Positions 48,455-64,000 of a stretch of DNA of 64,000 nt are shown here, piece after piece. Under the pieces are notes generated by a model, which saw only the letters and a list, made by a program, of their open reading frames with translations, was not told where the DNA came from and did no database searches. Origin of the DNA: Fomitopsis serialis (taxonomy: Eukaryota > Basidiomycota > Agaricomycetes > Polyporales > Fomitopsidaceae); contig NW_025954974.1 in assembly GCF_022376445.1 (NCBI RefSeq), positions 434,001 through 498,000 on the forward strand, written 5' to 3'. Both the position numbers and the translations under genes were made by a program. Every line of letters starts with the position of its first letter. Within the stretch, counting starts at the first letter, position 1.

Positions 48455-51400
48455 TCATGGCTCATCAGCTATGGCCTCCCCTATGTCGGCAGCATTGCCA
48501 ACTAAAGGTGCGATCACACTTCTCACATTGATCAATTCCGACTGTGGTATTCGTGTCCGTGCGTCGTCAAGCAAGCGAGAATACATTGCCGCTTGTCTAT
48601 TGGTGTTTGAGTAGAGATTCCAACGTACAACATGAATGATCACACTCACCTAGCTGCATACGCCTTCGCACCTCGTTCTTCTTCGCTATCATGGTTTCCC
48701 TGTGCACGTGTAGCCCATAGCTGCGTGAAATGGTCGAAAAAACGTTGAGTACGTCGCATCTCTTCCTTCACGATCTCGATCTCCTCCCTCCACCTCGTCG
48801 TGCGCGCACTCGCCCGAAACCACTCCACGCGCGCGGCTACACAGATTAGATCAGCCACGAGTCCTCTTGAGACGTCATCCTATACTCGCCTTCTAAAACC
48901 CATGTCTCCAGGCTCGAACCATGATAGGTCTCATCACGCCAAATCCACGACACAAACTCTCCTTTCCTCCCGGGTTTTTCGTCCCAAATGACAGGTGGTT
49001 GGCATTGTTCTTCGAGTAGAGGCTTGAGCGTAGAAGTGGTGTTGGGGCCGAGTAGTTTCAGAACCTTCAACCGGTTCAGCTCGTACTCTCTACGTAGTTC
49101 CTCGATCTTCGCTCGCTCAGTGGCTCGAAGTTTGGAATACCGGGTATGAGCCTGTTGACCAAAACTGCCCGCGTTCTGCTGCTTATAGAACGCTTCGAAG
49201 TGAAGCTTCTGTCGAATCTTCCTCAGCACGTCGTGCGCGTGTGCATCACGTAGCCGCCTCTCGGCAGAGACAAATCGGTCCACCTGTAAGTTTTGACGAA
49301 CGGCAGCGGGATACGCCGAAATAACAGGGATCGGCGTGTCTTCCGCGGCGGCGACGGTACTCGTGGGCCACTCGCTTGCATCGAACTGGCTCTCTAGATT
49401 TGCCAGAACGGGTCCCATGATGCGGGCGTGCCATATTAACCACGTCTTGAGTTCCCCATCCAACTTCGAACGGGCGTTCTCGATCTCGTTAAACAACTCC
49501 GAACCAGGATCACTATCGTAGGCTTTCACTTTCGTCTTCACTGCCCGTCTGCGTCAAGATGGTCAGACGATCAAAAAGTAAGATTCTTGTAGTACTCACT
49601 GTTGACGCTCCAAGTCCATCGCGGCTAAGAAGAAATCACCTAAATCACGCCGGGCGTCGTTGTCGTTGGGCATATCCTCCATAGCGCCCGCTTTGCGCTT
49701 CATCCCACGCCTCTGTGCGTCTGCTTCACGTTCGTCCGCTTGTTCTCTCTTCAGCGCGGCGAGAATGTCTTGTATTGTGGGTGCTACGAGCGATGAGCGC
49801 GAGTTGGAGCACTGTCCGCGTTCCACTCACCTTCGTCTGCAGCCGGTTGATATGGGTTCTTGAGGTCGCTACTACTCGAATCGAAATCCCGGTTCGTCTG
49901 CTGTGCGATGTACACGGCTTCCTCCTGCTTCCATTGATCTAGCGGCCGCTTGTTCAGCCGTAAGGTCGCTTCCAGCGTGTCGAGGTCTTCCTTATGCAGT
50001 GCATGGTATGATTCGGCTTCTTTCAGTTTCGATTCTAAATGTCGGCCTGCATGATGTCAGTGACGGCAGGTGACACACATTATTTAGTGTGTCTTACACG
50101 TTCCGAATGTTAAAACCGGAGTGAGATTTGCCCGTTTCGAACGTGGCGGCCGGCGCCGGCCGGAGGGGTCCGGGTCCACGTTGCAGACGTGGACGTTGCC
50201 AGTGATCCGGCCGGAGATCATGCCGGCCGGTTCAGCCTCGTCCCCAACGTTGCGGCCGGCCCTGCCCTCCTCAAATACCACCTCCAATGTTGCGGCCGGG
50301 CTGTTTTCACCAGACGTTGCAACACTCCGGCCGGAGCGCGTGCCAGCCCACCCCCCACTGCTCAACGCTCCGGCCGGAGTGCATGCCAGCCCCACCCCCC
50401 CTCCTCAATGTTGCGGCCGGCCTGTTTTCACCGGACGTTGCAACGCTCCGGCCGGACTACACCCCGGCCGCCCCCCCCACTTCTGAACGATCCGCCCGGC
50501 CTCTTTCACCCAACGTTGCAATGCTCCGGCCGGAGGGTATGCCGGCCGGTCATCCCTCGTTCCCAACGTTGCGGCCGGAGCAGGCAGAATTCAACATTCA
50601 AAGCGGCCAGGCAGTCCACACTGCAAACAGTCCGGCCGGTCAATAGATATAGCATTGCAAACGAGCCGGCCGGCCTCAGGCCCTACCACTACAAATGGTC
50701 CGGCCGGACTTTTTGCCGGCCGAAAACACAATGTCTCGGGCCGAGGGTATAGCCAAAACTCGGCCAAAGCAGCCAGACATTTTGCCGGCCGAGCTTTTGC
50801 TTCACCGACCAGGCAAGCATTGTCTCGGGCCAAAAAGTTGACCATTTTCTCGGGCCGAAGATTTGAGTACTGCCTCGGGCCGAAGAGTTGGGCATTTTCT
50901 CGGGCCGAAGATTTGGCCGAAGCTCGGTGAAAACAGCCGGGCTGTCAGATTGCCATATAAGGAAATTTGGTATTGACTGGTAGTACTTCATTGATAGACT
51001 ATAGTATCAATTCCCTAGTGACCAAAGATGTCTAGTTAGGCCAGGATGTGCAAAACAAGATTTACTCACAGGCTTCTTTGCACAACAAGTTAATCAATTT
51101 CTGAAGCCAGTTTTCTTTTCCCACACTGTTTGACTATCTAGGATGTGTTGTTTCAATGCGTAGAGTATATCCCCAACAGGAATAGTCTTATTCTTTGAAG
51201 CTGAATGCAGAACATGAGATAAGGGGCATACAGGTATGGTACCGTGCTGAACAATGTTGACTCCTGCAGACAATGTACATTCAAAACAATGTTTCACCAT
51301 CTAGAATAGTTCATTTCCTCACAAGGACTCAGTTCTCCAAAGGAATAGTCTTATTCACACAAGCTGAATGTGGTACAGAGTTAAGGGGATCATGCACTCC

Positions 51401-54400
51401 GGCCGGACCATCTCCTATGAGGATGAGGATTGGCCGGCCGGACTGTTACCAATGTAAATGTTTCTGTGGCAAGTGCAATGTGCATGCTGGTACAACATTT
51501 CAGTGTGACACCCAGACAGACAATAATCCAAAGTATGTCTCTCACAATATAATGCATATTCACCTTATCTTCATCCCCGAGTTCAGCTTCAAAGAATAAG
51601 ACTATTCCTTTGGGAGACTTGCTTGTTGCATTGAAATGTGCTACTCTAGATTGTGGAACATTGTGGGGAAAGCATATTGGCTTCAGGAAGTGAACACAGT
51701 ATGACATGTATACCCATACACCCTTGCCTTAACTCTGTACTACATTCAGCTTATGTGAATAAGACTATTCCTTTGGAGGATTCACTCCCTATGGGTAAAT
51801 GAACCATCAGAGATTGTGAAACAGTGTTTTGAATGTAGATTGTCTGCAGGAGTCAACATTGTTCAGCACGGTACCATACCTGTATGCCCCTTATCTCATG
51901 TTCTGCATTCAGCTTCAAAGAATAAGACTATTCCTGTTGGGGATATACTCTATGCATTGAAACAACACATCCTAGATAGTCAAACAGTGTGGGAAAAGAA
52001 AACTGGCTTCAGAAATTGATTAACTTGTTGTGCAAAGAAGCCTGTGAGTAAATCTTGTTTTGCACATCCTGGCCTAACTAGACATCTTTGGTCACTAGGG
52101 AATTGATACTATAGTCTATCAATGAAGTACTACCAGTCAATACCAAATTTCCTTATATGGCAATCTGACAGCCCGGCTGTTTTCACCGAGCTTCGGCCAA
52201 ATCTTCGGCCCGAGAAAATGCCCAACTCTTCGGCCCGAGGCAGTACTCAAATCTTCGGCCCGAGAAAATGGTCAACTTTTTGGCCCGAGACAATGCTTGC
52301 CTGGTCGGTGAAGCAAAAGCTCGGCCGGCAAAATGTCTGGCTGCTTTGGCCGAGTTTTGGCTATACCCTCGGCCCGAGACATTGTGTTTTCGGCCGGCAA
52401 AAAGTCCGGCCGGACCATTTGTAGTGGTAGGGCCTGAGGCCGGCCGGCTCGTTTGCAATGCTATATCTATTGACCGGCCGGACTGTTTGCAGTGTGGACT
52501 GCCTGGCCGCTTTGAATTTTGAATTCTGCCTGCTCCGGCCGCAACGTTGGGAACGAGGGATGACCGGCCGGCATACCCTCCGGCCGGAGCATTGCAACGT
52601 TGGGTGAAAGAGGCCGGGCGGATCGTTCAGAAGTGGGGGGGGCGGCCGGGGTGTAGTCCGGCCGGAGCGTTGCAACGTCCGGAGCGTTGCAACGTCCGGT
52701 GAAAACAGGCCGGCCGGAGCATTGAGGAGGGGGGGCGGGGCTGGCATGCACTCCGGCCGGAGCATTGCAACGTACTGTGAAAACAGGCCGGGTGGATCAT
52801 TGGGGACAGTATTCAGGGATGGTGAGGCCGGCCGCAACGTTGGAGACGAGGCAGAGCCGGCCGGCATGCACTCCGGCCGGATCGCTGGCAACGACAACGT
52901 CTGCAACGTGGACCCGGACCCCTCCGGCCGGCGCCGGCCGCAACGTTTGAGACGGGCGAATCTCACTCCGGTTTTAACGTTCGGAACGTTAAATCTTACT
53001 CAGTAGGCTCGGTGACACACACAAAGGACTGACCCATTTTGAACATCTTCTGTGCGTTGAAATCCGAGTTGTGCGCATCAATGACGTCTTGTCGATGGCC
53101 GGGGCCCATTTCCCGCACCGATCGCCCGATGGCATTCATAGCCGCCCAACGCCGCTCGACAGACTCTCCATCGGTATTGCCGACACCAGGTGTGTAGTAG
53201 AAAGAAAAGAAATAGCGACACAGTCCCGTGTGTGACGCGAGATGCCATTTTGGGACGCAGCGTCGAATAGCCGGCCACATCTCTTTGGCAAGTGTCACAC
53301 CAGGGACCGAGGGCATAACCGACGCGATATTCTTCAGCCGCTTCCACCAATGTATGCCATACTTGCAGTTGACGTCGTAAGAGCCAACTACGAGGCCAAG
53401 AGAGTGAAACCACCGTAGGCCAGACAGGGTCGCATAATCGACGTTCGCATACCGTTCGCCGACGTGTAAATCGACAGTACCACAAGGAAGAACGAAACCG
53501 TGTCGAGTACACGACAACCCAACCTGCCCTGTTTTGATCTTCCCCTTGTAACGGTCAGACAGGGCATTGAACTTGCTACAGGTGGTGGTCTCGTCTTGGG
53601 CGTCGTCATAAACCTTCATCTTGTCGAGATAATCGCGGTAGGCTTCACTGTCGACGTAGTACGCCGCTCCGTCCATGAGAGGTGGATCGGCGTGGTCCAT
53701 CTTCTTATCGTGTTGACTAAGACTAAAGTTACCGTCTTTCCCGTAGTGAAGGGCGTCTTTGTACTGCTCGCCCTCTGGGCGGTTCCGCCAATTCGGATCG
53801 ATATTGATGTCCGGATGTGGACACGCAGGGCAGCGCAGTGCGAGACAGCCCGGCGGAAGCTTCGTTTTGACGTCAACTGCGAAGCGTTTGAGGGTCTGCA
53901 GGTAGTGGAATTGCCGATGAGCCGTCATGAACTCCCGATAGCGATCCTGCCTTATATATCAGCGAATCATCCCGTGACTCCAGCAAGGCACCCACCTTCA
54001 CGTCTCCGAAGAATGCGTTAGATGTGAGCCTGCGCAAAGTCCCGTAGAAATCGTGGGCAGTGGTCTTCGCCTGAAACGTGAGGTGCGTGAAAAGTCGTAG
54101 GACGTGGAAGGTGAACACGGTTTGCGGGCGCAAGAACGACGCTGGCCACAAGCCTGCGTTGCACAACTGGACTGGTCGCTCCTCCACATGTTGAGCTCCG
54201 TGTCGACAGTCGCAGTATTCCACAGCGATTGTCTGCACGCCAGTCGTGTGCACGACAGTCAGCTTGGTCGGAGGATCGCCAAACGACGAGGGACAGGGTC
54301 GCCCATGGTGGCCGATGGAAAAGATGAAGCCGAGGTCACTCAGCTGTTTGCGCTCGAAAAAACGTCCGTTCCAACACTGTACACGGTGGAGAGGGTTCCA

Positions 54401-54973
54401 GGTGTGCGCGTCGATTAGGCAGTCGCGACAGAGCATAGGACCGTTGAAGCATTCGGTGCAACGAAACGGGGCGTCCGTGTTCTTGCACTTGTAGCATGGC
54501 TTCCCAATGTTTGAGTCAGCCTCGCGTCGCCTAAAAACGTTCAAGAGTTTCTGCGCCCACGTCTCCAGGAAAGCGAACGTAATGGAATGAGCGCTCTAGG
54601 AATTCAATCAACACCACATGCGACAGAGGGACAACGAACTGCAACTCACTTGGCCCTGAGGTTTCTTCTGAGGTTGCTCTGTACGATCTTCTTCAAGCGC
54701 TGAGGGTTCAAGAAACTCGTACACTGTTCGATCGGGGGTGGCGATGTTCGTGCCGCCGTTGGCCATTGTTTCGAGCAGGGATGGTAATGGTATGTCGTCC
54801 GCGTGGGTGGTGCAGCCGCCGCGCTTCTCAACCCGCATGCCTGGAGACAAGTATTCGATTGTCTCGTTACCATTGACGTCGACAGACAGTGTGGCCGGAC
54901 CATCGGGAATAAGCTCGCCGCCGTCGTCCACATAAACATAGTCTTGCGTCTTCTTGCGCTTGGCTCGCGGCAT
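48455..54973 (-). CDS. KDZ-superfamily transposase with CxC2 domain, open frame with a foldback element in an intron
   Basis: The start is at 54973 (MPRAKRKKTQDYVYVDDG). After an intron comes LLNVFRRREADSNIG and a CxC2-type cysteine cluster (CYKCKNTDAPFRCTECFNGP, LCRDCLIDAHTWNPLHRVQC) at about 54500-54380. The KDZ domain follows: YGKDGNFSLSQHDKKMDHAD, GSYDVNCKYGIHWWKRL, PKWHLASHTGLCRYFFSFYY and NTDGESVERRWAAMNAIGRS. The acidic residues expected in this RNase-H fold are present (DGNF, SYDVNC, DGESVE). Beyond VCVTEPTE the gene crosses an intron holding the 2.9-kb foldback element and goes on with SKLKEAESYHALHK, TIQDILAALKREQADE, the 48846-49541 exon and EIEIVKEEMRRTQRFFDHF, to the stop at 48455. 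With the element spliced out the frame is open, so the transposase may still be functional. KDZ transposases cut and paste large DNA elements. Confidence 0.85.
50098..52993. mobile_element. Foldback element FB1 inside an intron of the KDZ gene
   Basis: The element is almost entirely an inverted repeat: left arm 50098 to about 51303, right arm about 51808 to 52993, core about 0.5 kb. The arms are near identical; reading 50689-50991 on the minus strand and 52122-52424 on the plus strand gives the same 100 residues. The outer half of each arm has many CCGGCCGG palindromes, often inside CTCCGGCCGGAG next to CGTTGCAACG. The inner half has TCGGGCCGAAG repeats, then AT-rich DNA. The ends read ACGTTCCGAA (left) and, reverse complemented, TTTAACGTTCCGAA (right). 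TCTTAC flanks both sides (50092-50097, 52994-52999). On the gene strand this is GTAAGA, the 5' splice donor, so the insertion duplicated the donor. No protein-coding gene was recognised inside. Confidence 0.88.
51180..51933. repeat. Palindromic 14-mers in the FB1 core
   Basis: GAATAGTCTTATTC (5-bp stem, 4-nt loop) occurs at 51180-51193 and 51343-51356, and its reverse complement at 51594-51607, 51757-51770 and 51920-51933. Each copy has similar flanks (GCTGAATG-type sequence on one side). Spacing is close to 163 bp within each side, so the core is itself built of a tandem repeat that was then inverted. Confidence 0.8.
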
Positions 54974-56945
54974 GGAGGGTGTATGGAGCAGAATCGGAGC
55001 GAGGAGGGACGTTGAAAGAGTACGATACGTGCGTCACAACAATGGCGGGCCACAGAGCTGGGGGAATCAGAGCGGCAGGGTTGGACGAGTGGTTGCGCAG
55101 GGCCACTGGCGTCCCAGGGCGGACGTTGCGGGTGGCTAACAGTGCCGGTCAAAGCGAAGGGTCTGGTTGAAGTCCAACGTGGGGGGTGGCGATCGGCTGC
55201 GTTCACGTGTGAGTCGACATACGTTAACAGACACGGAGCACAATGTGATCATTTGAGCCGGGGCACAACTCTATTTGCAACACAAAACCGCGTCGAGGGA
55301 ACGCGTAGACAAGGCGAACCAGGCGACGAAAATACTTACATCTCACGTGCAGGACATCTCGTCTCGCACAACGGCACCTTCACCTCTCGCCCACTGTAGC
55401 CACCTGCATCAACGGCTTCAGGGGTGATGTTGAAGTAGGGATAGACAGCAGGATCAGTTTAGGTTAACATGACGAAGGCACCAGTGACCCACAGATGGCG
55501 AGAACAATCTCAGTTGTCGTGATCTTGCCTCCCGTCGAATCTTAGACCTTGCGGAGTACCCGTCGGCGAGCTCAGGATGGAGCATAGACGGCCTGCGGTC
55601 CCCAGCACGGGTAATCGGGATCCAGGGCGTGAGGATATGCTCCCCGATCTCGGTATACATTAGCCCCGTTCATGGTGATACAAAGATGGAGAGACTCACA
55701 TAGATCGAGACAGTCATACGCCCGTAGTTGGCGAGCTGGGGTATCAGAATCTGGGTCAACGAGAAATAACGTACCAGACAGGGGACAGACTCAGTCCTCT
55801 CATGGATGACCAAGACAATTCCTATGGTGGGCGTAGTTGCGAATCATTGCGCGTTTGGCACGGCTTGCGGACGATAGTTGGCGGCGAGCATCTCGAAGCT
55901 TGGCTGGGTTTACTCGACTGCTCGTCTGAGAGCAGGAGTTCGCCTGCCCGGACATCAACGCATGGTCGAAACCAAAGCGGACGTCCGAGTTGCCTCACAT
56001 GGGAAAGACGGAAGATGGGCGGGGGATGGCGCCCGACGGGCAGGCAGACGGCGCGACGAGAGTAGGACAGGAGGAGGATGAGGAGGCGGGCAGGCCAGGT
56101 GCGGGCGGTAAAGTGGTGAACGCGGTCGCCGGTCAAGCAGTGCGAGCGCTCGGGGTGAGCTCGGTGTGGTAGACGCTTGCCAGGCGCTCCGACAGCCACA
56201 GTCGCACTTAGACTTACATCTTCCGCTCGCGCTCGAAACGGCACTGCGTTCTCTCCCCCTGCTCGCTTCCGCTCTCGCTCCGAAACCCCTGAGGGATCGT
56301 TCTGCGGCCAGGCAAGATTTCGATCTTCCTGCGCGAACGTGGCTACGGCGCAGTAAATCTGCTGCCGGGCTCCTCGTTGGGCACGTCGACCTGAAACTGC
56401 AAGACGATTCCCTCGCATTAAGACGTGTCGTGTAACTTCAAGTGTCAAGGCATTGCCGGGTCAATACTGCGTGCGTTGATCTTGACCTGTGAAGGCAACG
56501 CGTGCCTGCACAGTCCGTTGTTTAGCAAACACGGCCCAGGGGTGTCATCCTCCCTTCCTCAAAGTACTGCCCCGCACCCACTCCGGACTTCTCGCCGGCG
56601 TGTCAGGTAGTACGCGTGAGCCTTCTTGATATTTCTCGCCACCGAAGGCTGCTGACGCGTGCACGACTGAGGTCAGCATTGCTAAGATTTGACAAACCCG
56701 AGAACGCGTGGGCTTTCTCTCAGACGACGCCTTAGAATTGATACAACGCGTCACAAAGGTGCGGAAGGGTCCTCAGATCTTGTCAATGATTCTGACATGC
56801 GATGTTGGTCCAGCCACACGGTCCACGGCGCTGCAACTACTCCGCCGGAGTTGCGTACATCGGACGCAGTATATTGGTATGCGGCCTATGCGCTTCCTTT
56901 AATTCGCGGAATCGACTAATGTGCCGCACCGTAGCTGGGTCCAAT
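54974..56945. promoter_or_regulatory. Divergent region between the KDZ gene and the plus-strand partner gene
   Basis: About 2 kb separates the two divergent genes. 54974-55200 is the KDZ promoter side. Several open frames between 55800 and 56450 lack recognisable domains. No terminal repeat or other mobile element was seen, which agrees with this being internal sequence of one large transposon. Confidence 0.4.
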
Positions 56946-59122
56946 ATGGCCGATGCTAATCTTCACCGACGCATCCAATTGTCCACCTTCGTGCTCAACC
57001 CCTCCCCCGAGTCAGGTATGACGTTCCGATGCGGCAGATTCTTCTCTGGCTAATGAACGCAGAGAGACGCTCTAGCTTGGGGCCCTTCGATGCACGCTGC
57101 GCTGCCGACGCAGAAGACCATTGCAATATCATTACGACACCGTGGATGGACTGGATCCCCGAGTTTCCACGCATTGCGGGCCGGGAGATCGTCACGTTCA
57201 GGGATGGTCTCTGGGGACCCCAGGAGTACACCCGCTGGCCGCAGATGTACAACGAAGGCTGCGTCCACCATGCCTGTATTCCGACCAGGCACTCGGATTA
57301 CGCACCCGGGAATCAAGTGTACGATGGACTCGGCTATGATCCCTGGGAGGAATCGCCGACTTGTGGTGTACTTGGATTTGGATACCTGAAGTCGGACGTG
57401 TTGCAGGAGCTGCATAAAATTGCGGCGCGCACCATCATGCAGTACGAGCAGGCCGATTCCTTCGTGCGGCAGCGCGAGGACATAGGATCCCATCAATCGT
57501 CTGTCGATCGACGCCTGGGCGGCATGCTGTGCCTTCTCTTGAGGAACGCCGTCGACCGACTTAGAGCACTGCCCAGCACTGAGCTGCACACGTTGGTGAC
57601 AGCGAGGATGGCTCACCGCCTGATCCTCGAACTTGCGGGTCTATCAGTGTATTACAGCATCGTCGTCCCCCGCGTCGCCCACGTGCACCCCCTTCCGCGC
57701 ACACCATTGAAGGTACTGGGTGCTTTTGTTCGCAATGACGCCGCCGCCCAGCTGCTCCATCGTGTCGGTGTGCCCTTCTGGTACATTCGGCCATGGTCGG
57801 CTGACATCTATATCCGCAAGGTTGTGAAGCCCTGTCATTGGCAGACCGAGCTCAGTGACGAACCTGCTTGGCCGCGAATCCCCAAGAGCTGGTACGACCC
57901 GGACGGCACCCATCAGGACCCCTCACGCTGGACGCACCCATCCGTCATCTTCGTGAGCAACCTTCTGTGCTCCTCGGCATTGCCTCGACTCCAGGTACTC
58001 GCGCGGCCTGACGGCGTGGAAAGCGACGCTAAGAGGCACAAGGGCGATGACGCCACCAAGCCAATTATGGCAGGTCCTCAGGTTCCACCGCAGACTCGCA
58101 ACTCGAAAAAGAGAGGCAAACGGGCGCGGGGGGGTCGAAGAGGGGCCAAGACACCAGACTCACATCCCGCCACAACGTTCGAGGCGCCTCCCTCGGATCT
58201 TGTCAGGCTCAGTCCTAACTGGACTGCTGCCCTGTCCGATCTGTCGCCACTCCCGTTCCCCCCTCCTGTCGCCCTCGAATACTTCTTTCCCCCTCCCTTT
58301 GTCGTGTACCATGCGGAGACTCAAAAAGCGCGGTACATCCACAACTTCACGCGGATTCGTGAGTATTGCAGGCACCGTCTCGTCGACGCCGCCATCAATG
58401 GGACACCCTTGCGTATCGCCGATTGGCGTCATGTGCTGCATGGCGATTATCGTCTCGACGATCACGACGAGAAGGACAAGACGGGACAAGAGGTTCAAGC
58501 ACCGGGTAATCCGCCGTCGTCGGATTCGCAGAAACGTAGCTATCTCTACGAGCGATCGCAGTGCGTGCGTCGGCTCTTCGCCAAAGGCGGCTCGCTGCTT
58601 TCCTACGACGAACGGAACGTGTCGTCGTATCGCGGGATGAAAGTCACTCTCGAGGCCGCCAAAACCAACCACATGTTGAAGACATTGGTGCTTTGGGAGC
58701 TCTACGAAACCAACTGGCGTTGTGAGTTGCGCGCCCTCGACAACCTCCTCGTCGACCATTCGGACGACGCCTTTCGCCAGTGGGAACGTGAGCAACGAGT
58801 TGCTGAAGTGTGGCGCTCCTCGCTTCATCAAACCGCGTTCTCGGTCGTCGATGTCTCCTCCCCCGCCTTCTGTTGGACACCTGCAGGCGAGGAAGGTTGG
58901 CAGGGTCGACGAAGGAACCTTCAGGCTCTCTTGCGGGTCATGAGTGCGTGGCCACAAGTGCCCGAGATGGTGCGAGCAAACGCCACCACCATAGGGGATT
59001 GCGACGATGCAGGGCACTTCGACGCAGTTGAGGCCACTGCACTCAAGTTCTATGTCAAAACCTTCGCGTCGAAGTTTGACCGTCTGCCATGTCCTCCCGT
59101 GCAACTCGTGTCTCCCCCGTAG
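56946..59122 (+). CDS. Large uncharacterised protein next to KDZ transposase, likely transposon cargo
   Basis: Two exons: 56946-57015 (MADANLHRRIQLSTFVLNPS), intron 57016-57062, then one long exon to 59122, about 710 residues. The N-terminal half includes NIITTPWMDWIPEFPRIAGR, WPQMYNEGCVHHACIPTRHS and VRQREDIGSHQSSVDRRLGG. A basic linker follows (RNSKKRGKRARGGRRGAKTP), possibly a nuclear localisation signal. The C-terminal half has YFFPPPFVVYHAETQKARYI, RIREYCRHRLVDAAINGTPL and an aromatic-rich region (MLKTLVLWELYETNWRCELR). I do not recognise a named domain. Its placement, divergent from a KDZ transposase with no other gene between, suggests a companion protein of the same element. The single long open exon shows it is not decayed. 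Confidence 0.65.
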
Positions 59123-59460
59123 TGTACCATTCGACACCGTCTCCCTTCCGTTCTCCAGTACAGTGTGTAATGCGACGACGTAATTAGCTACCCCGACTAC
59201 CATGTACATATATAGACAGACGTACTAAGCGAACTTATGGCTGATACGGGTGTGGTGGCCCCGACGACGCTTTGATCGCCCAAAGAGGATAAGTGGCTCA
59301 ACCCTGTTTGGTGGCGTTCCTGTTACCTCGATCGAATTCACCGCTGACATTGTGTTGCTTTGTTGCTTTGTTTAGTGGTGCACCTGGTGGCCCTCGGCGA
59401 GCACGCCAACGTATATAATGTGAGTGGCACGCCCGTCCCTCCCCTGGTCGCTCATCAATC
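59123..59460. promoter_or_regulatory. Short gap between the two plus-strand partner genes
   Basis: This gap of 338 bases includes a TATATAG at 59210-59216 and TATATAATG near 59411, the latter about 45 bp before the next ATG and a plausible TATA element. Confidence 0.4.
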
Positions 59461-60899
59461 ATGCCTCGCCGAACATCCGCTCCGAAGTGTTATACCTGCA
59501 TCGTCGAACCCAAGCGCGGCATAGACCAGCACTCATGGTTGGTGAAGACAGCTGTTGATGCCTGGAAGGCTGCCGGCCCGAATGGCAACTACAACCAGAC
59601 CGCGAGGACAGTCGCCGATCAGTTCGCCGCACAGTTCGACCCCAACATCTTGGCGACGGTCGAGGAGCCCAACAAGCCACCTCGCCTTGAGACGGAAGAA
59701 GAGTGCTTTGAGCGGTGCGGCGCGCGCAGGAGGGTGCGTTGGGTCTATCCTGGTCATTCACGTTCGTCCCTAACTGCTCACAGACGAAAATCGTCAAGTG
59801 GATGGAAAACCACCGCGCCTGGATTCAAGAGCAAGTATCTTCGACTCCGCGTCTCCTCGAGCTCCCTACTCCACCTACCCAGCAGTCCCAGAAGCGCCGC
59901 AAGCGAGCCAAGAGTGCGCGGGACCTCTTCAAACGCGCTCACCCTGAGGTAGCCAAGGCTGCCAGGGAGGCAGCTACGGCGAATGGGGTCACGGTGGGAG
60001 CGGAACTCTCCAGAGCAGCCGCGATCGCTGTATCGGAGGCCGCCAAGCGCATGCAGACTGAGGATCCGGAAGCGTGGGATGTATTCGAGCGTGCGTCTGC
60101 AGCGTCAAAGCGGGAAATGCGCGAGAAAAAAGGCGGAAAGGGCAAAGGTAAAGCCGGAGGTGAGGACAGCGAGAGCGACGGCGAGGAGAGAGACGACGAA
60201 GCCGGCGAGGACGACGAGGGAAAGGACGAGGACATCGCTGAGAGTAGCCCCAAGGTGGCACCGCTCGAGGAGTAAGTTATGTCCTTCATGATGCATGACG
60301 AACACGAGTTGACATCCCGCAAGGATGCAGAGCCGTATTAGATATACTGCGCATGCGTCCGTCGATGAATGGGCCAAAAACTCCGGCATGGACGTCTTCG
60401 TATACCTCGGGTGGGTCGATGCTGAGGGACGAGCAAGGAAATTCACGTAGGTGACTGGCTGATGATCAATCCTCCTTAGCTAACATCCTGCAGTGCTAGT
60501 GCCGGCAAGGGAGGACGTGACGACTTATCGACATACATTAAGAATGAGCGCATTGCGGACAGAATGGACGCATATATGCTCAAGACGCGTGATCTGGAGC
60601 TGCGACCGGTGAACACTCAGATGGTCGCTGGGCCTGCAGGATCATCCCGACCAGTCCCTGCGCCCGCGGGCCCATCGGAGCACACCGATCCAGTTCGCGA
60701 CCAAGTATCTCGAGGCACATCGGAGAGTTCAACGATCGTCGAGACTGTGGAGTCCGGCCACTCTGAACCCGCGGTCGACGACCAACACGCGCAAGAGCCA
60801 CAGCGTGTCGCGTCACCTCAAACCAACCCGGATGAACGGCTCGATAGTGGCGACGCTGCCATAGCACCGAGCCCATTCAGTGGAAAACCTCGCTGTTAA
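59461..60899 (+). pseudogene. Uncharacterised coiled-coil protein, 3' end cut by foldback element FB2
   Basis: Four exons: 59461-59733, 59784-60271, 60324-60446 and 60494-60899; all junctions are GT-AG and in frame. The product begins MPRRTSAPKCYTCIVEPKRG, has an Ala-rich helical region (RDLFKRAHPEVAKAAREAAT, AIAVSEAAKRMQTEDPEAWD), a charged KGGKGKGKAGGEDSESDGEE stretch and a small domain (DEWAKNSGMDVFVYLGWVDA). A Pro/Ser/Thr-rich tail ends PFSGKPRC. The stop codon TAA at 60897-60899 is the first three bases of the inverted repeat of FB2, so the original C terminus was lost or lies beyond 63965. It may be a second cargo gene of the KDZ element. Function is unknown. Confidence 0.6.
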
Positions 60900-61616
60900 C
60901 GGTACAGCCGGAGTGCATTTTGACCGTTGCAAACGGTAGAGCCGCCTCCGGCCGGAGTAGTCCGGGTCTACCGTTAGCAACAATGCACCGCTTGCAACAG
61001 GCCGGCCGGGCTTTTGGCCAGGGTAATGTACCTGTTGTAAACAGTCCGGCTGTATAGGCAACGGTCCGGCCGGACCCATACAACATCACTGCAAACAGGC
61101 CGGGTGGAGGGCAGGGTTAGCACATGCAACGGAGCGGCCGGCCGGTCCACGTTGCAAACAGAGCGGCCAGACTCAGGCCCCACCACTTCAAATGTTCCGG
61201 CCAGGATAAAATCCCTTCATTGCAAGCGGACCGGCCGGAGTGAAGTCTATCTGGTCCAGAATGGGTTGGCCAGCCTAAACAAACTGACTCCACGAACAGG
61301 CCGGCCGGGCAGGAGTTGTCCTGCTTCAAACGGTCCGGCCGGTCACAGCCCCCTGGGGGCTATTGAAATACTATATGTATTATGCACCTATGGGGTATAC
61401 CATCATTAGTAGATCACAGCATAATTTTCCCATGACTTAGGGATGCCTAGTGAAGCTGTAAAACACAAAACAGCCCCACTGGCTGGCCAAATTAACTGGC
61501 CAGAGATTTCACTCACCCAGGTTTTTGCTTTACTGGCCATCAAATTAGCCAGGTTGTCCCTACAGGGCCAAATCAATAGGCCGGACATTTCAAAACATTG
61601 GCCAGGCATTTTAGTT

Positions 61617-61760
61617 CATTGGCCGAAGCTTTGAATTCACTGGCCGAAGCTTTTACTTCATTGGCCGAAGCTTTTACTTCATTGGCCGAAGCTTTTCTTC
61701 ACCGGCCGAAGCTTTGGATTGACCGGCCAAAGCTTCTACTTCACCGGCCGGCGAAAACAG
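61617..61760. repeat. TTGGCCGAAGCTTT tandem repeats in FB2 left arm
   Basis: A unit of about 21 bp (TTCATTGGCCGAAGCTTTTAC and variants) is repeated about six times here, and its inverted counterpart (AAAGCTTCGGCCAATGAA) at about 62936-63090 in the right arm. FB1 has the related TCGGGCCGAAGATTT unit at 50820-50930 and, inverted, 52190-52290. The same architecture with diverged units marks the two elements as relatives. Confidence 0.8.
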
Positions 61761-62066
61761 CCGGTGCTCGGCAAAAAATGGCCGGCCAGTGCGCAAAAAT
61801 GGCCGGCCGGTGGGCAGAACCGGCCGGGCTGTTGAATTACTATATGTGGAAATGTGGTATTGTCTGGGAGCCCTTCATTCATAGAGTCTAGTATTGATTT
61901 CCTAGTGTTCAAAGGTACATAGTTAGGCCAGGATATGCGAGACAAGATTTACTCACAGGCTTCTTTGCAAAACATGTTATTCAACTGCTGAAGCCAATAT
62001 TCTTTGCCCACACTGTTTGACTATCTAGAATGTGTTATTTCAATGCATAGAGTAGATCCCCAAAAG

Positions 62067-62639
62067 GAATAGTCTTATTCTTCGAAGCTGAATGCAGAAC
62101 ATGAGATAAGGGGTAAGGTATAGTATACATGTCAAACAATGTTGACTTCCTGCAGCCAATCTACATTCCAAACACAGTTTCACAATCTAGAATGGTTCAT
62201 TACACACAAGGAGTGAGTCGTCCAAAGGAATAGTCTTATTCACATGAGCTGAATGTGGTACAGAGTTAAGGGGATCATGCACAGGCCGGACCATCTCCTA
62301 TGAGGATTGGCCGGCCGGACCATTACCAACAGTGGGTAGATGTTTCTGTGCCATTCTTGATTGCCAAACCTTGTGGGCAAAGCATATTGGCTTCAGGATG
62401 TGAACACAGTATAACATGTATACCCATATACCCACCCTCACCTTAACTCTGTGCTGCCTTCAGCTTGTGTGAATAAGACTATTCCTTTGGAGGACTGATT
62501 CCTTGTGGGTCAATGAACTATTCTAGATGGTAAAACACTGTTTGGAAAGAACATTAGCTGCAGGAAGTCAACATGTATACCATACCTGTATACCCCTTAT
62601 TTGTTGTCCTGCATTCAGCTTCATAGAATAAGACTATTC
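62067..62639. repeat. Palindromic 14-mers in the FB2 core
   Basis: GAATAGTCTTATTC lies at 62067-62080 and 62228-62241, and its reverse complement at 62471-62484 and 62626-62639. Spacing is 161 bp and 155 bp, close to that in FB1. The word is unchanged between the two elements although much of the surrounding sequence has drifted. Confidence 0.8.
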
Positions 62640-64000
62640 CTTTTGGGGATCTACTCTATGCATTGTGATAACACATTCTAGATTTTCAAACAGTGTGGGC
62701 AAAGAATATTGGCTTCAGGAATTGAATAACATGTTTTGCAAAGAAGCCTGTGAGTAGTAAATCTTGTCTTGCATATCCTGGCCTAACTATGTACCTTTGA
62801 ACACTAGGAAATCAATACTAGACTCTGCGAATGAAGGGCTCCCAGACAATACCACATTTCCACATATAGTAATTCAACAGCCTGGCCGGTTCTGCCCACC
62901 AGCCGGCCATTTTTGTTTTCGCCAGCCGGTGAAGTAGAAGCTTCGGCCGGTCAATCCAAAGCTTCGGCCAGTGAGAAAAAGCTTCGGCCAGTGAGAAAAA
63001 GCTTCGGCCAATGAAGGAAAAGCTTCGGTCAATGAATAAAAAGCTTCGGCCAATGAATTAAAAGCTTCGGCCAATGAACTAAAATGCCCGGCCGATGTTT
63101 TGAGATGTCCGGCCATTTAATTTGGCTGGTGGCAGCTTCACTAAGCCCCTTTAAAATGTGGGAACACTATGTTGGGCTCCATTAGTGATGGTCTTACATA
63201 TACAATCATTCAAATCACACTCTGTATCATAATACAATAGGCCGAAGGTTTTTGAATGCCCTCGGCCAGTGTTTGCATGGCTGGCCAGTGAGCTAACAGC
63301 TCAGGCAATGTGATAGGGCATGCACTGTGGACATATAATACATGCTACTAGTAGGCTGTTCTAAGGGAGTATGGTCTATTGTTGACTGGCCCAGCCAATA
63401 CTGGGTCACAATACTGTTGCCCGGCCGGACCGTTACCAATGGATGGTGCCACTGCCCGGCCGGACCGTTACCAGTGTGGAGTGCTAGATTATATGGCCTG
63501 GCTAGCCTGCTATCAATGTGGAAAAATGGTCCGGCCGCTCCGTTGCCAGCTAGAGATGATGCAACCCGGCCGGTCTGTTATCAGCCAGGGAGCATGTGCT
63601 CCGGCCGGCCCATTGCAACTGGTGAACTATGCACTCCGGCCGGCCCATTACAAATGAAGGATCCCATTTCCCGGCCGGTTCGTTACCATAGGAGAAAGAG
63701 TATCCCGGTTGATCTGTTACAATTAAAACCCCTTATTGCCCGGCCGGTCCGTTGCCAGCAAGACACTAAATGGCCCCCCTGTTCAGACAGAAAATAGGTG
63801 CCCTAGGGATACACCGGCCGGACTGTTTGAACTGGTTTGAGATACGCTCGGCCGGCTTGTTTGAAACCAGTCCGGCCGGCCTGTTTGCAACAAGGAAATC
63901 ACAGCTCCGGCCGGAGGCGGCTCTACCGTTTGCAATGGTCGAAATGCACTCCGGCTGTACCGTTAGTATCGAGTAGGTACCACTGAATAATGTGTAGCAC

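Follow-up and report, generated by a model that had tools for sequence, protein, structure and literature searches.

Foldback elements FB1 and FB2 of Fomitopsis serialis as probable non-autonomous partners of TET-carrying KDZ transposons

Introduction

TET+ Kyakuja transposons of Agaricomycotina have 7-bp target site duplications (TSDs) and 5'-CA..TG-3' termini, the latter given for two Laccaria families, without terminal inverted repeats (TIRs), and Kyakuja is the sole TET+ kind reported for Polyporales in the passages covered (Kojima 2025, PMC12730594). According to the same source, the function of TET/JBP in fungal transposons has not been experimentally validated. DNA transposons with a KDZ transposase have been shown to move in Cryptococcus (KDZ1-KDZ3; PMC12810828), and Galileo of Drosophila has long, internally repetitive inverted ends that contain several transposase sites (PMC3688188). 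Here we describe FB1 and FB2, two foldback elements in a 64,000-bp stretch (hereafter the window) of the genome of the polypore Fomitopsis serialis (RefSeq assembly GCF_022376445.1, contig NW_025954974.1, positions 434,001 to 498,000), together with their copies elsewhere in the assembly, which comprises 66 Mb in 806 contigs.

We consider it probable (roughly 0.87) that FB1 and FB2 are two non-autonomous foldback families of the KDZ superfamily, Kyakuja-like, that are moved in trans by TET-carrying KDZ transposons. This reading rests on common tips, 7-bp TSDs, identical copies at different sites and coding partners matched to each family. Like TET+ Kyakuja, FB1 and FB2 have a 7-bp TSD and a 5'-CA start, and their coding partners combine KDZ with TET/JBP; unlike the published elements, their termini are CA...TC (CA... 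at one end and ...GGCTC at the other) rather than CA..TG (PMC12730594). We use the label Kyakuja-like because TSD and gene content agree but the termini differ. Kyakuja is described without TIRs, and the outermost ~22 bp here are not inverted copies of each other, although in the foldbacks long inverted arms lie inside them (PMC12730594). The main-text passages on TET+ Kyakuja, as distinct from Table S1 and the figures, mention neither non-autonomous nor foldback forms, nor do they mention arrays of the CG-rich palindrome CCGGCCGG, the motif that fills the arms of FB1 and FB2 (PMC12730594). More broadly, the literature searched, which did not extend to Repbase, yielded no account of fungal KDZ elements of non-autonomous or foldback type. 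An initial annotation of the window had known of no described fungal family with this layout. That holds for the foldback form, which is apparently undescribed in the literature searched, and fails for the superfamily, as KDZ elements with TET/JBP were already known.

Other systems are more distant. KDZ1-KDZ3 have a CxC1 domain, TIRs of 139-241 bp and mostly 8-bp TSDs (4-8 bp for KDZ2/3), and neither TET nor a foldback partner is mentioned for them in the passages covered (PMC12810828). Galileo offers the best model of how such elements may work, with multiple transposase binding sites inside its arms, but its transposase belongs to the P superfamily and has a THAP domain, and present evidence indicates no relatedness (PMC3688188). 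The transposase of the FB1 and FB2 partners is KDZ, and not the P-type or MULE-type enzyme of foldback elements and Galileo. Drosophila FB has a MULE-type transposase. Miniature inverted-repeat transposable elements are short and non-coding, under about 600 bp, a size exceeded by FB1, by FB2 and by an FB2 derivative of ~1.4 kb.

Results

FB1 and FB2 share asymmetric tips and 7-bp TSDs

FB1 occupies window positions 50076-53010 (2,935 bp) and FB2 positions 60869-63994 (3,126 bp), so neither is the giant element that had been announced. The limits first drawn also fell short, as the true ends lie 20-30 bp beyond the inverted repeats. The tips form an asymmetric pair that is common to both elements, with GAGCC... 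at one end (R) and CACATTATT... at the other (L). In aligned FB1 copies, conservation ran beyond the inverted repeat into the tips CACATTATTTAGTGTGTC and GAGCCTACTGAGTAAGATT and the flanks diverged outside; the FB2 tips CACATTATTCAGTGG and GAGCCCATTCAGTGG correspond to these. The FB1 L tip, CACATTATTTAGTGTGTC... (50076..50097, plus strand), stands outside the inverted repeat, whose alignment begins at position 23, and is common to all copies that have an L end. The FB1 R tip, GAGCCTACTGAGTAAGATT when read inward, lies at 52990..53010 on the minus strand. Exact TSDs enclose both elements: GGTGACA for FB1, the same 7 bp on either side (50069..50075 and 53011..53017), and TAGCACC for FB2 (60862..60868 on the left; on the right 63995-64000 plus one base past the window end, read in L065). 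A TA target duplication, suggested by the inner repeat ends, was replaced by the 7-bp duplication after flank alignment. The FB2 surroundings (window 60721-60868, and L065) contain a similar repeated segment on both sides, apparently an older repeat that is unrelated to the TSD.

Genome-wide, an exact 7-bp TSD was present in 11 of the 14 FB1-type copies with both ends. For FB2-type pairs, 17 of 18 were placed by script and all 17 (16 foldbacks and the coding element C139, described below) had a 7/7 TSD; the remaining pair, C683, was 7/7 by eye. Near-complete matches numbered at least 17 for the FB1 core and at least 20, plus one split, for the FB2 R arm; both are minimum figures in which allelic duplicates may be counted. 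Because L014 and L017 share an identical element and nearly identical flanks, the assembly holds contigs that are duplicated or allelic, which may inflate the number of copies counted. This issue was noted around L013/L014/L017 and in C351, C355 and C288. A pattern search with GGCCGAAGGGCCGAAG found nothing. The shortest derivative that we saw was an FB2 derivative of ~1.4 kb at C265:13706-15110, with the exact TSD CTCGCCT. At L056 (C308), an FB1-type L end shows numerous CG to CA/TG changes and seems to belong to a copy in decay.

The window FB2 and the copy in C93 are 100% identical, as are the copies in C103 and C318, and in each pair the TSDs differ. Since identical copies occupy different sites, both families have moved recently. 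The genome search and the aligned copies, with their defined termini and TSDs, thus bear out the proposal that these are multi-copy insertions.

Long coding elements carry the same ends

Through R-end arms that lacked a foldback core, we arrived at two long elements. The first, at C58:57040-76665, is 19,626 bp long and has FB1-type ends and the exact TSD GGGCCCC; the second, at C139:5510-31138, measures 25,629 bp, counting a third foldback nested inside it, and has FB2-type ends and the exact TSD CCTCAAC. C58 encodes KDZ (PF18758), CxC2 (PF18803) and Tet_JBP (PF12851) domains, with Tet_JBP near the GAGCC end. In a whole-genome search, C139 gave a Tet_JBP match of 38.5 bits, above the cut-off, and a KDZ match of 158 bits in which one TAG and one TAA were read through. 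The stretch of C58 that holds CxC2 aligns with C139 at 70%, and the TET domain of C139 matches CcTet of Coprinopsis cinerea, a protein of solved structure (E 4e-13). Proteins related to the C58 KDZ protein are found in further Agaricomycetes, for example Taiwanofungus, Sparassis and Lactarius, among the 42 proteins listed.

This arrangement recurs across the genome. A Tet_JBP match in the same sense lay 1.6-3.6 kb inside 13 of 32 FB1-type R (GAGCC) ends, and 12 of these 13 also had a KDZ match 6-11 kb inside. Among the other 19 ends, 16 belonged to FB1 copies with adjoining core matches. Over 105 bp, FB1 and C58 were identical at 0.90 (R) and 0.81 (L), and FB2 and C139 at 0.88 (R) and 0.77 (L), compared with 0.59-0.73 across families (FB1 with C139, FB2 with C58). 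Each foldback family therefore best matches the ends of its own TET-carrying partner. The two ends of a coding element are weakly similar to each other (0.72 in C58 and 0.71 in C139 over 105 bp), and the coding elements also carry CCGGCCGG arrays. The initial annotation had allowed that FB1 and FB2 might prove to be ends of a known coding transposon. They do have ends in common with KDZ-TET/JBP elements, but are separate non-autonomous elements and not fragments of them.

The foldbacks share a layout and a core

Arm alignments and motif counts confirmed a foldback layout common to FB1 and FB2, with outer CCGGCCGG arrays, middle GGCCGAAG arrays and a core containing GAATAGTCTTATTC. FB1 consists of a left outer arm with 11 CCGGCCGG sites (50098..50760, plus), a middle array of 25-bp units with GGCCGAAG (50816..50915, plus), an AT-rich palindromic core (50937..52160), the inverted copy of the middle array (52197..52296, minus) and a right outer arm, again with 11 CCGGCCGG (52400..52989, minus). 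FB2 runs from its R tip GAGCCCATTCAGTGG and an outer arm with 7 CCGGCCGG (60869..61360, plus) through a middle array of 21-bp units with GGCCGAAG (61596..61750, plus), a palindromic core (61823..62886) and the inverted middle array (62930..63078, minus) to an outer arm with 10 CCGGCCGG that closes in the L tip, inward reading CACATTATTCAGTGG (63421..63994, minus). That the two elements differ in unit sequence had been seen before. Of 47 CCGGCCGG sites in the window, 24 are in FB1, 21 in FB2 and 2 elsewhere, and first-order Markov simulations predicted 0.03-0.10 for each of the four outer arms. GAATAGTCTTATTC or its complement occurs at 5 sites in FB1 and 4 in FB2. Two further words had been offered as common to both elements; GTTGCAAC is confined to FB1 (4 of 4 window sites), and GTTACCA occurs once in FB1, three times in FB2 and three times elsewhere, and therefore neither is a hallmark of the pair.

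Nothing recognised is encoded by FB1 and FB2 themselves, in keeping with the earlier reading: 0 of the 6 open reading frames (ORFs) tested had a Pfam match, and an Rfam scan gave no match at the gathering threshold. KDZ and TET/JBP are found in their partners.

The inverted arms of FB1 comprise an inner 956 bp at 98% and an outer 280 bp at 85%, or 91% over 1306 bp in a gapped alignment. In FB2, the match is 83% over 735 bp of the inner arms and 93% over 69 bp at the termini, and nothing long aligns between these, so the arms are near-identical in FB1 and diverged in FB2, as first observed. Between the families, the cores are 75-85% alike and the outer arms can be aligned only near the ends; the outer arms of subfamily FB1b match over part of their length only, as do those of FB2.

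Arm copying as the probable source of the matching FB1 arms

The near-identity of the FB1 arms had been attributed to youth or to homogenisation. Copies of the two families are about equally alike (97.0-100% among 8 FB2 copies, 96.3-100% among FB1 copies of the same type), which does not favour a younger FB1. FB1 subfamilies a and b are 98.6% alike in their cores and 97.6% in their R arms, whereas their L arms are 75% alike with many gaps. As the subfamilies agree in the R arm and differ in the L arm, arm identity in FB1 reflects arm copying and not youth, and homogenisation stands. In FB1a, the L arm repeats the R arm almost exactly, in inverted form, from position 23 inward; in FB1b, long inverted matches start only further in (among the three best hits listed per copy), and most FB1b copies are without long matching outer arms. 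The left arm of FB1a thus appears to have been replaced, save for its outermost 22 bp, with the right arm in inverted form, and the sparing of these 22 bp points to a need for two different tips.

The palindromic core would behave as a payload common to both families, because the cores are alike, the outer arms align only near their ends and C58 has no core match among the listed FB1 or FB2 matches. Identity groups suggest that the core is present in both orientations in both FB1 subfamilies, as would be expected from recombination between inverted arms.

Copy-private transitions in the foldback arms are enriched at CpG sites

CpG observed/expected ratios are 0.78-1.06 in the arms of FB1 and FB2 and 0.85-0.92 in those of FB3 (the foldback nested in C139), compared with 0.17 (FB1), 0.20 and 0.27 in the three cores, where TG and CA reach 1.36-1.42; the first 48 kb of the window stand at 1.09. 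In the FB1 arms of 13 copies (L017 dropped), copy-private transitions affected 59 of 303 CpG sites and 11 of 645 other C/G sites (p 6e-21). In 8 FB2 copies, the counts were 12/216 and 8/845 (p 1e-4). The FB1 load is uneven, with L007 alone contributing 16 of 71 private CpG transitions in a count without coverage filter. Between FB1 subfamilies, the ratio of private to fixed transitions was 59:8 at CpG and 11:36 at other C/G, a contrast that depends on the left arm, where alignment is poor. The natural reading would be CpG methylation followed by deamination, with new copies founded mainly by CpG-intact ones.

Outside its CpGs, CCGGCCGG is conserved between the FB1 subfamilies (0/83 letters differ, compared with 93/580; in the reverse direction 5/80, compared with 90/593). 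Motif CpGs were no better conserved than other arm CpGs (4/83 versus 25/230, p 0.12; 2/80 versus 11/209, p 0.53).

The coding elements speak against a simple CpG story. In these, with one pairwise comparison per region, transitions at CpG versus other C/G were 2/231 versus 23/430 in the R array, 16/582 versus 29/1555 in the body, 7/211 versus 5/391 in the L array and 20/317 versus 16/767 in the L-side body. The same pairwise measure gave 130/1892 versus 60/4262 for FB1 arms (six disjoint pairs) and 41/690 versus 49/2591 for FB2 arms (three pairs). We dropped the idea that TET-carrying copies are protected in cis from CpG decay, given few counts and a modest contrast in this matched comparison.

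Across the genome, CCGGCCGG pairs spaced 8-30 bp apart numbered 755, compared with 50 for a backward control. Because further inverted CCGGCCGG arrays with other unit sequences occur among the matches listed, at C9:75630-79103 and at C25:72173-72682 and 85313-86920, the motif marks more than FB1-FB3. These arrays may represent a fourth foldback family together with a longer partner; C25 has no KDZ or TET match among the matches listed.

Insertion context

A KDZ paralogue at C490 offers an empty counterpart of the FB1 site, as the joined FB1 flanks align to it uninterrupted (72%, query 24-240 of 240); six further matches cover the right side only. FB1 adjoins the KDZ transposase gene of another element (53011..54595, minus; KDZ domain ORF 52996-53958, CxC2 ORF 53873-54595) and sits in or beside this KDZ/CxC2 gene. 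FB3, a third foldback family, lies in the KDZ region of C139 (C139:19238-22901, 3,664 bp), nested between the KDZ and CxC2 stretches, with the TSD AAGTGAG by eye (L105-L107) and a core ~78-82% alike to that of FB1. C58 is continuous, save for a 62-bp gap, at the position where C139 holds FB3.

Discussion

In the mechanism that we propose, the KDZ transposase of the TET-carrying elements would bind both tips and the subterminal CCGGCCGG arrays and would, with a stagger of 7 bp, mobilise FB1 and FB2 in trans. We infer the enzyme, its binding to the arrays and cut-and-paste transposition; the earlier suggestion that the regular arrays may be protein-binding sites is kept here as a putative one.

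Several points weigh against this account. The exact TSD is missing in 3 of 14 FB1-type copies (6/7 bp in L010, 2/7 bp in L011 and L017). The R ends of C64, C170 and C279 have no clean assignment, the last resembling an FB1 copy split by ~5 kb, and the L end of FB2 is equally like the L and the R end of C139 (0.77 each). The KDZ domain is split over two frames in C58 and has two stops read through in C139, for both of which introns or decay could be responsible; C139 is also interrupted by a foldback, and no examined copy is established as autonomous. An empty site was not found for FB2, whose joined flanks match only the window's own halves.

A further, speculative possibility, which we think rather unlikely to hold as a whole, is that the CCGGCCGG arrays form a methylation switch. 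KDZ/CxC2 would then bind only where CpGs are unmethylated or oxidised, a transposon-borne TET/JBP would reset the site, and the foldbacks, by virtue of dense arrays, would be amplified using both enzymes in trans. Maize En/Spm offers a model of how such a gate may work. Its subterminal repeats are bound by TnpA in a methylation-sensitive manner; it has a CACTA transposase, a 3-bp TSD and no TET enzyme.

Among the alternatives to trans movement by TET-carrying partners, an improbable one is that FB1 and FB2 have a KDZ origin and either owe their present movement to another KDZ transposase, one that lacks TET/JBP, or no longer move. The tips by themselves do not identify an enzyme, and with 108 KDZ and 71 Tet_JBP matches in the genome, many KDZ loci are not beside TET. 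However, the ends of both families best match TET-carrying elements, which argues against a different enzyme, and identical copies at different sites signify recent movement.

Still less probable is a role of the arms for the host, in which hairpin RNA from the long inverted repeats silences KDZ-TET elements and the tandem duplication of GC-rich sequence gives rise to CpG density as a by-product. The gapped match between the FB1 arms would suffice for a long hairpin, and the failure of motif CpGs to stand out from other arm CpGs fits a by-product. Against this, extended matching outer arms are missing from most FB1b copies, the non-CpG letters of CCGGCCGG are conserved, and the coding elements carry such arrays too.

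Segmental or satellite palindromes spread by duplication without transposition, which tandem arrays, foldback shape and the duplicated L014/L017 locus with its shared flanks might suggest, can be given hardly any credence and are largely refuted by exact 7-bp TSDs and sharp borders in unrelated flanks: the elements are multi-copy and bounded, contrary to the single-copy palindromes that the initial annotation had held out as a possibility, and a blastn search with 450 bp of FB1 flank hit nothing in C58, C139, L061 or the window except the window's own flanks.

If FB1 and FB2 are indeed partners of TET-carrying KDZ transposons, they illustrate how a foldback may arise in a KDZ lineage, with one arm copied onto the other and distinct tips kept. 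They also bear on the reason for TET/JBP genes in fungal transposons. Were the methylation switch true, the loss of array CpGs by deamination would leave a copy unable to move, and the contrast between CpG-rich arms and a CpG-poor core would be accounted for. One genome holds both coding and non-coding members with common ends, and FB1 and FB2, whose arms contain CpG palindromes, offer a compact, gene-free and recently active substrate for experiments on transposase binding, methylation and oxidation.

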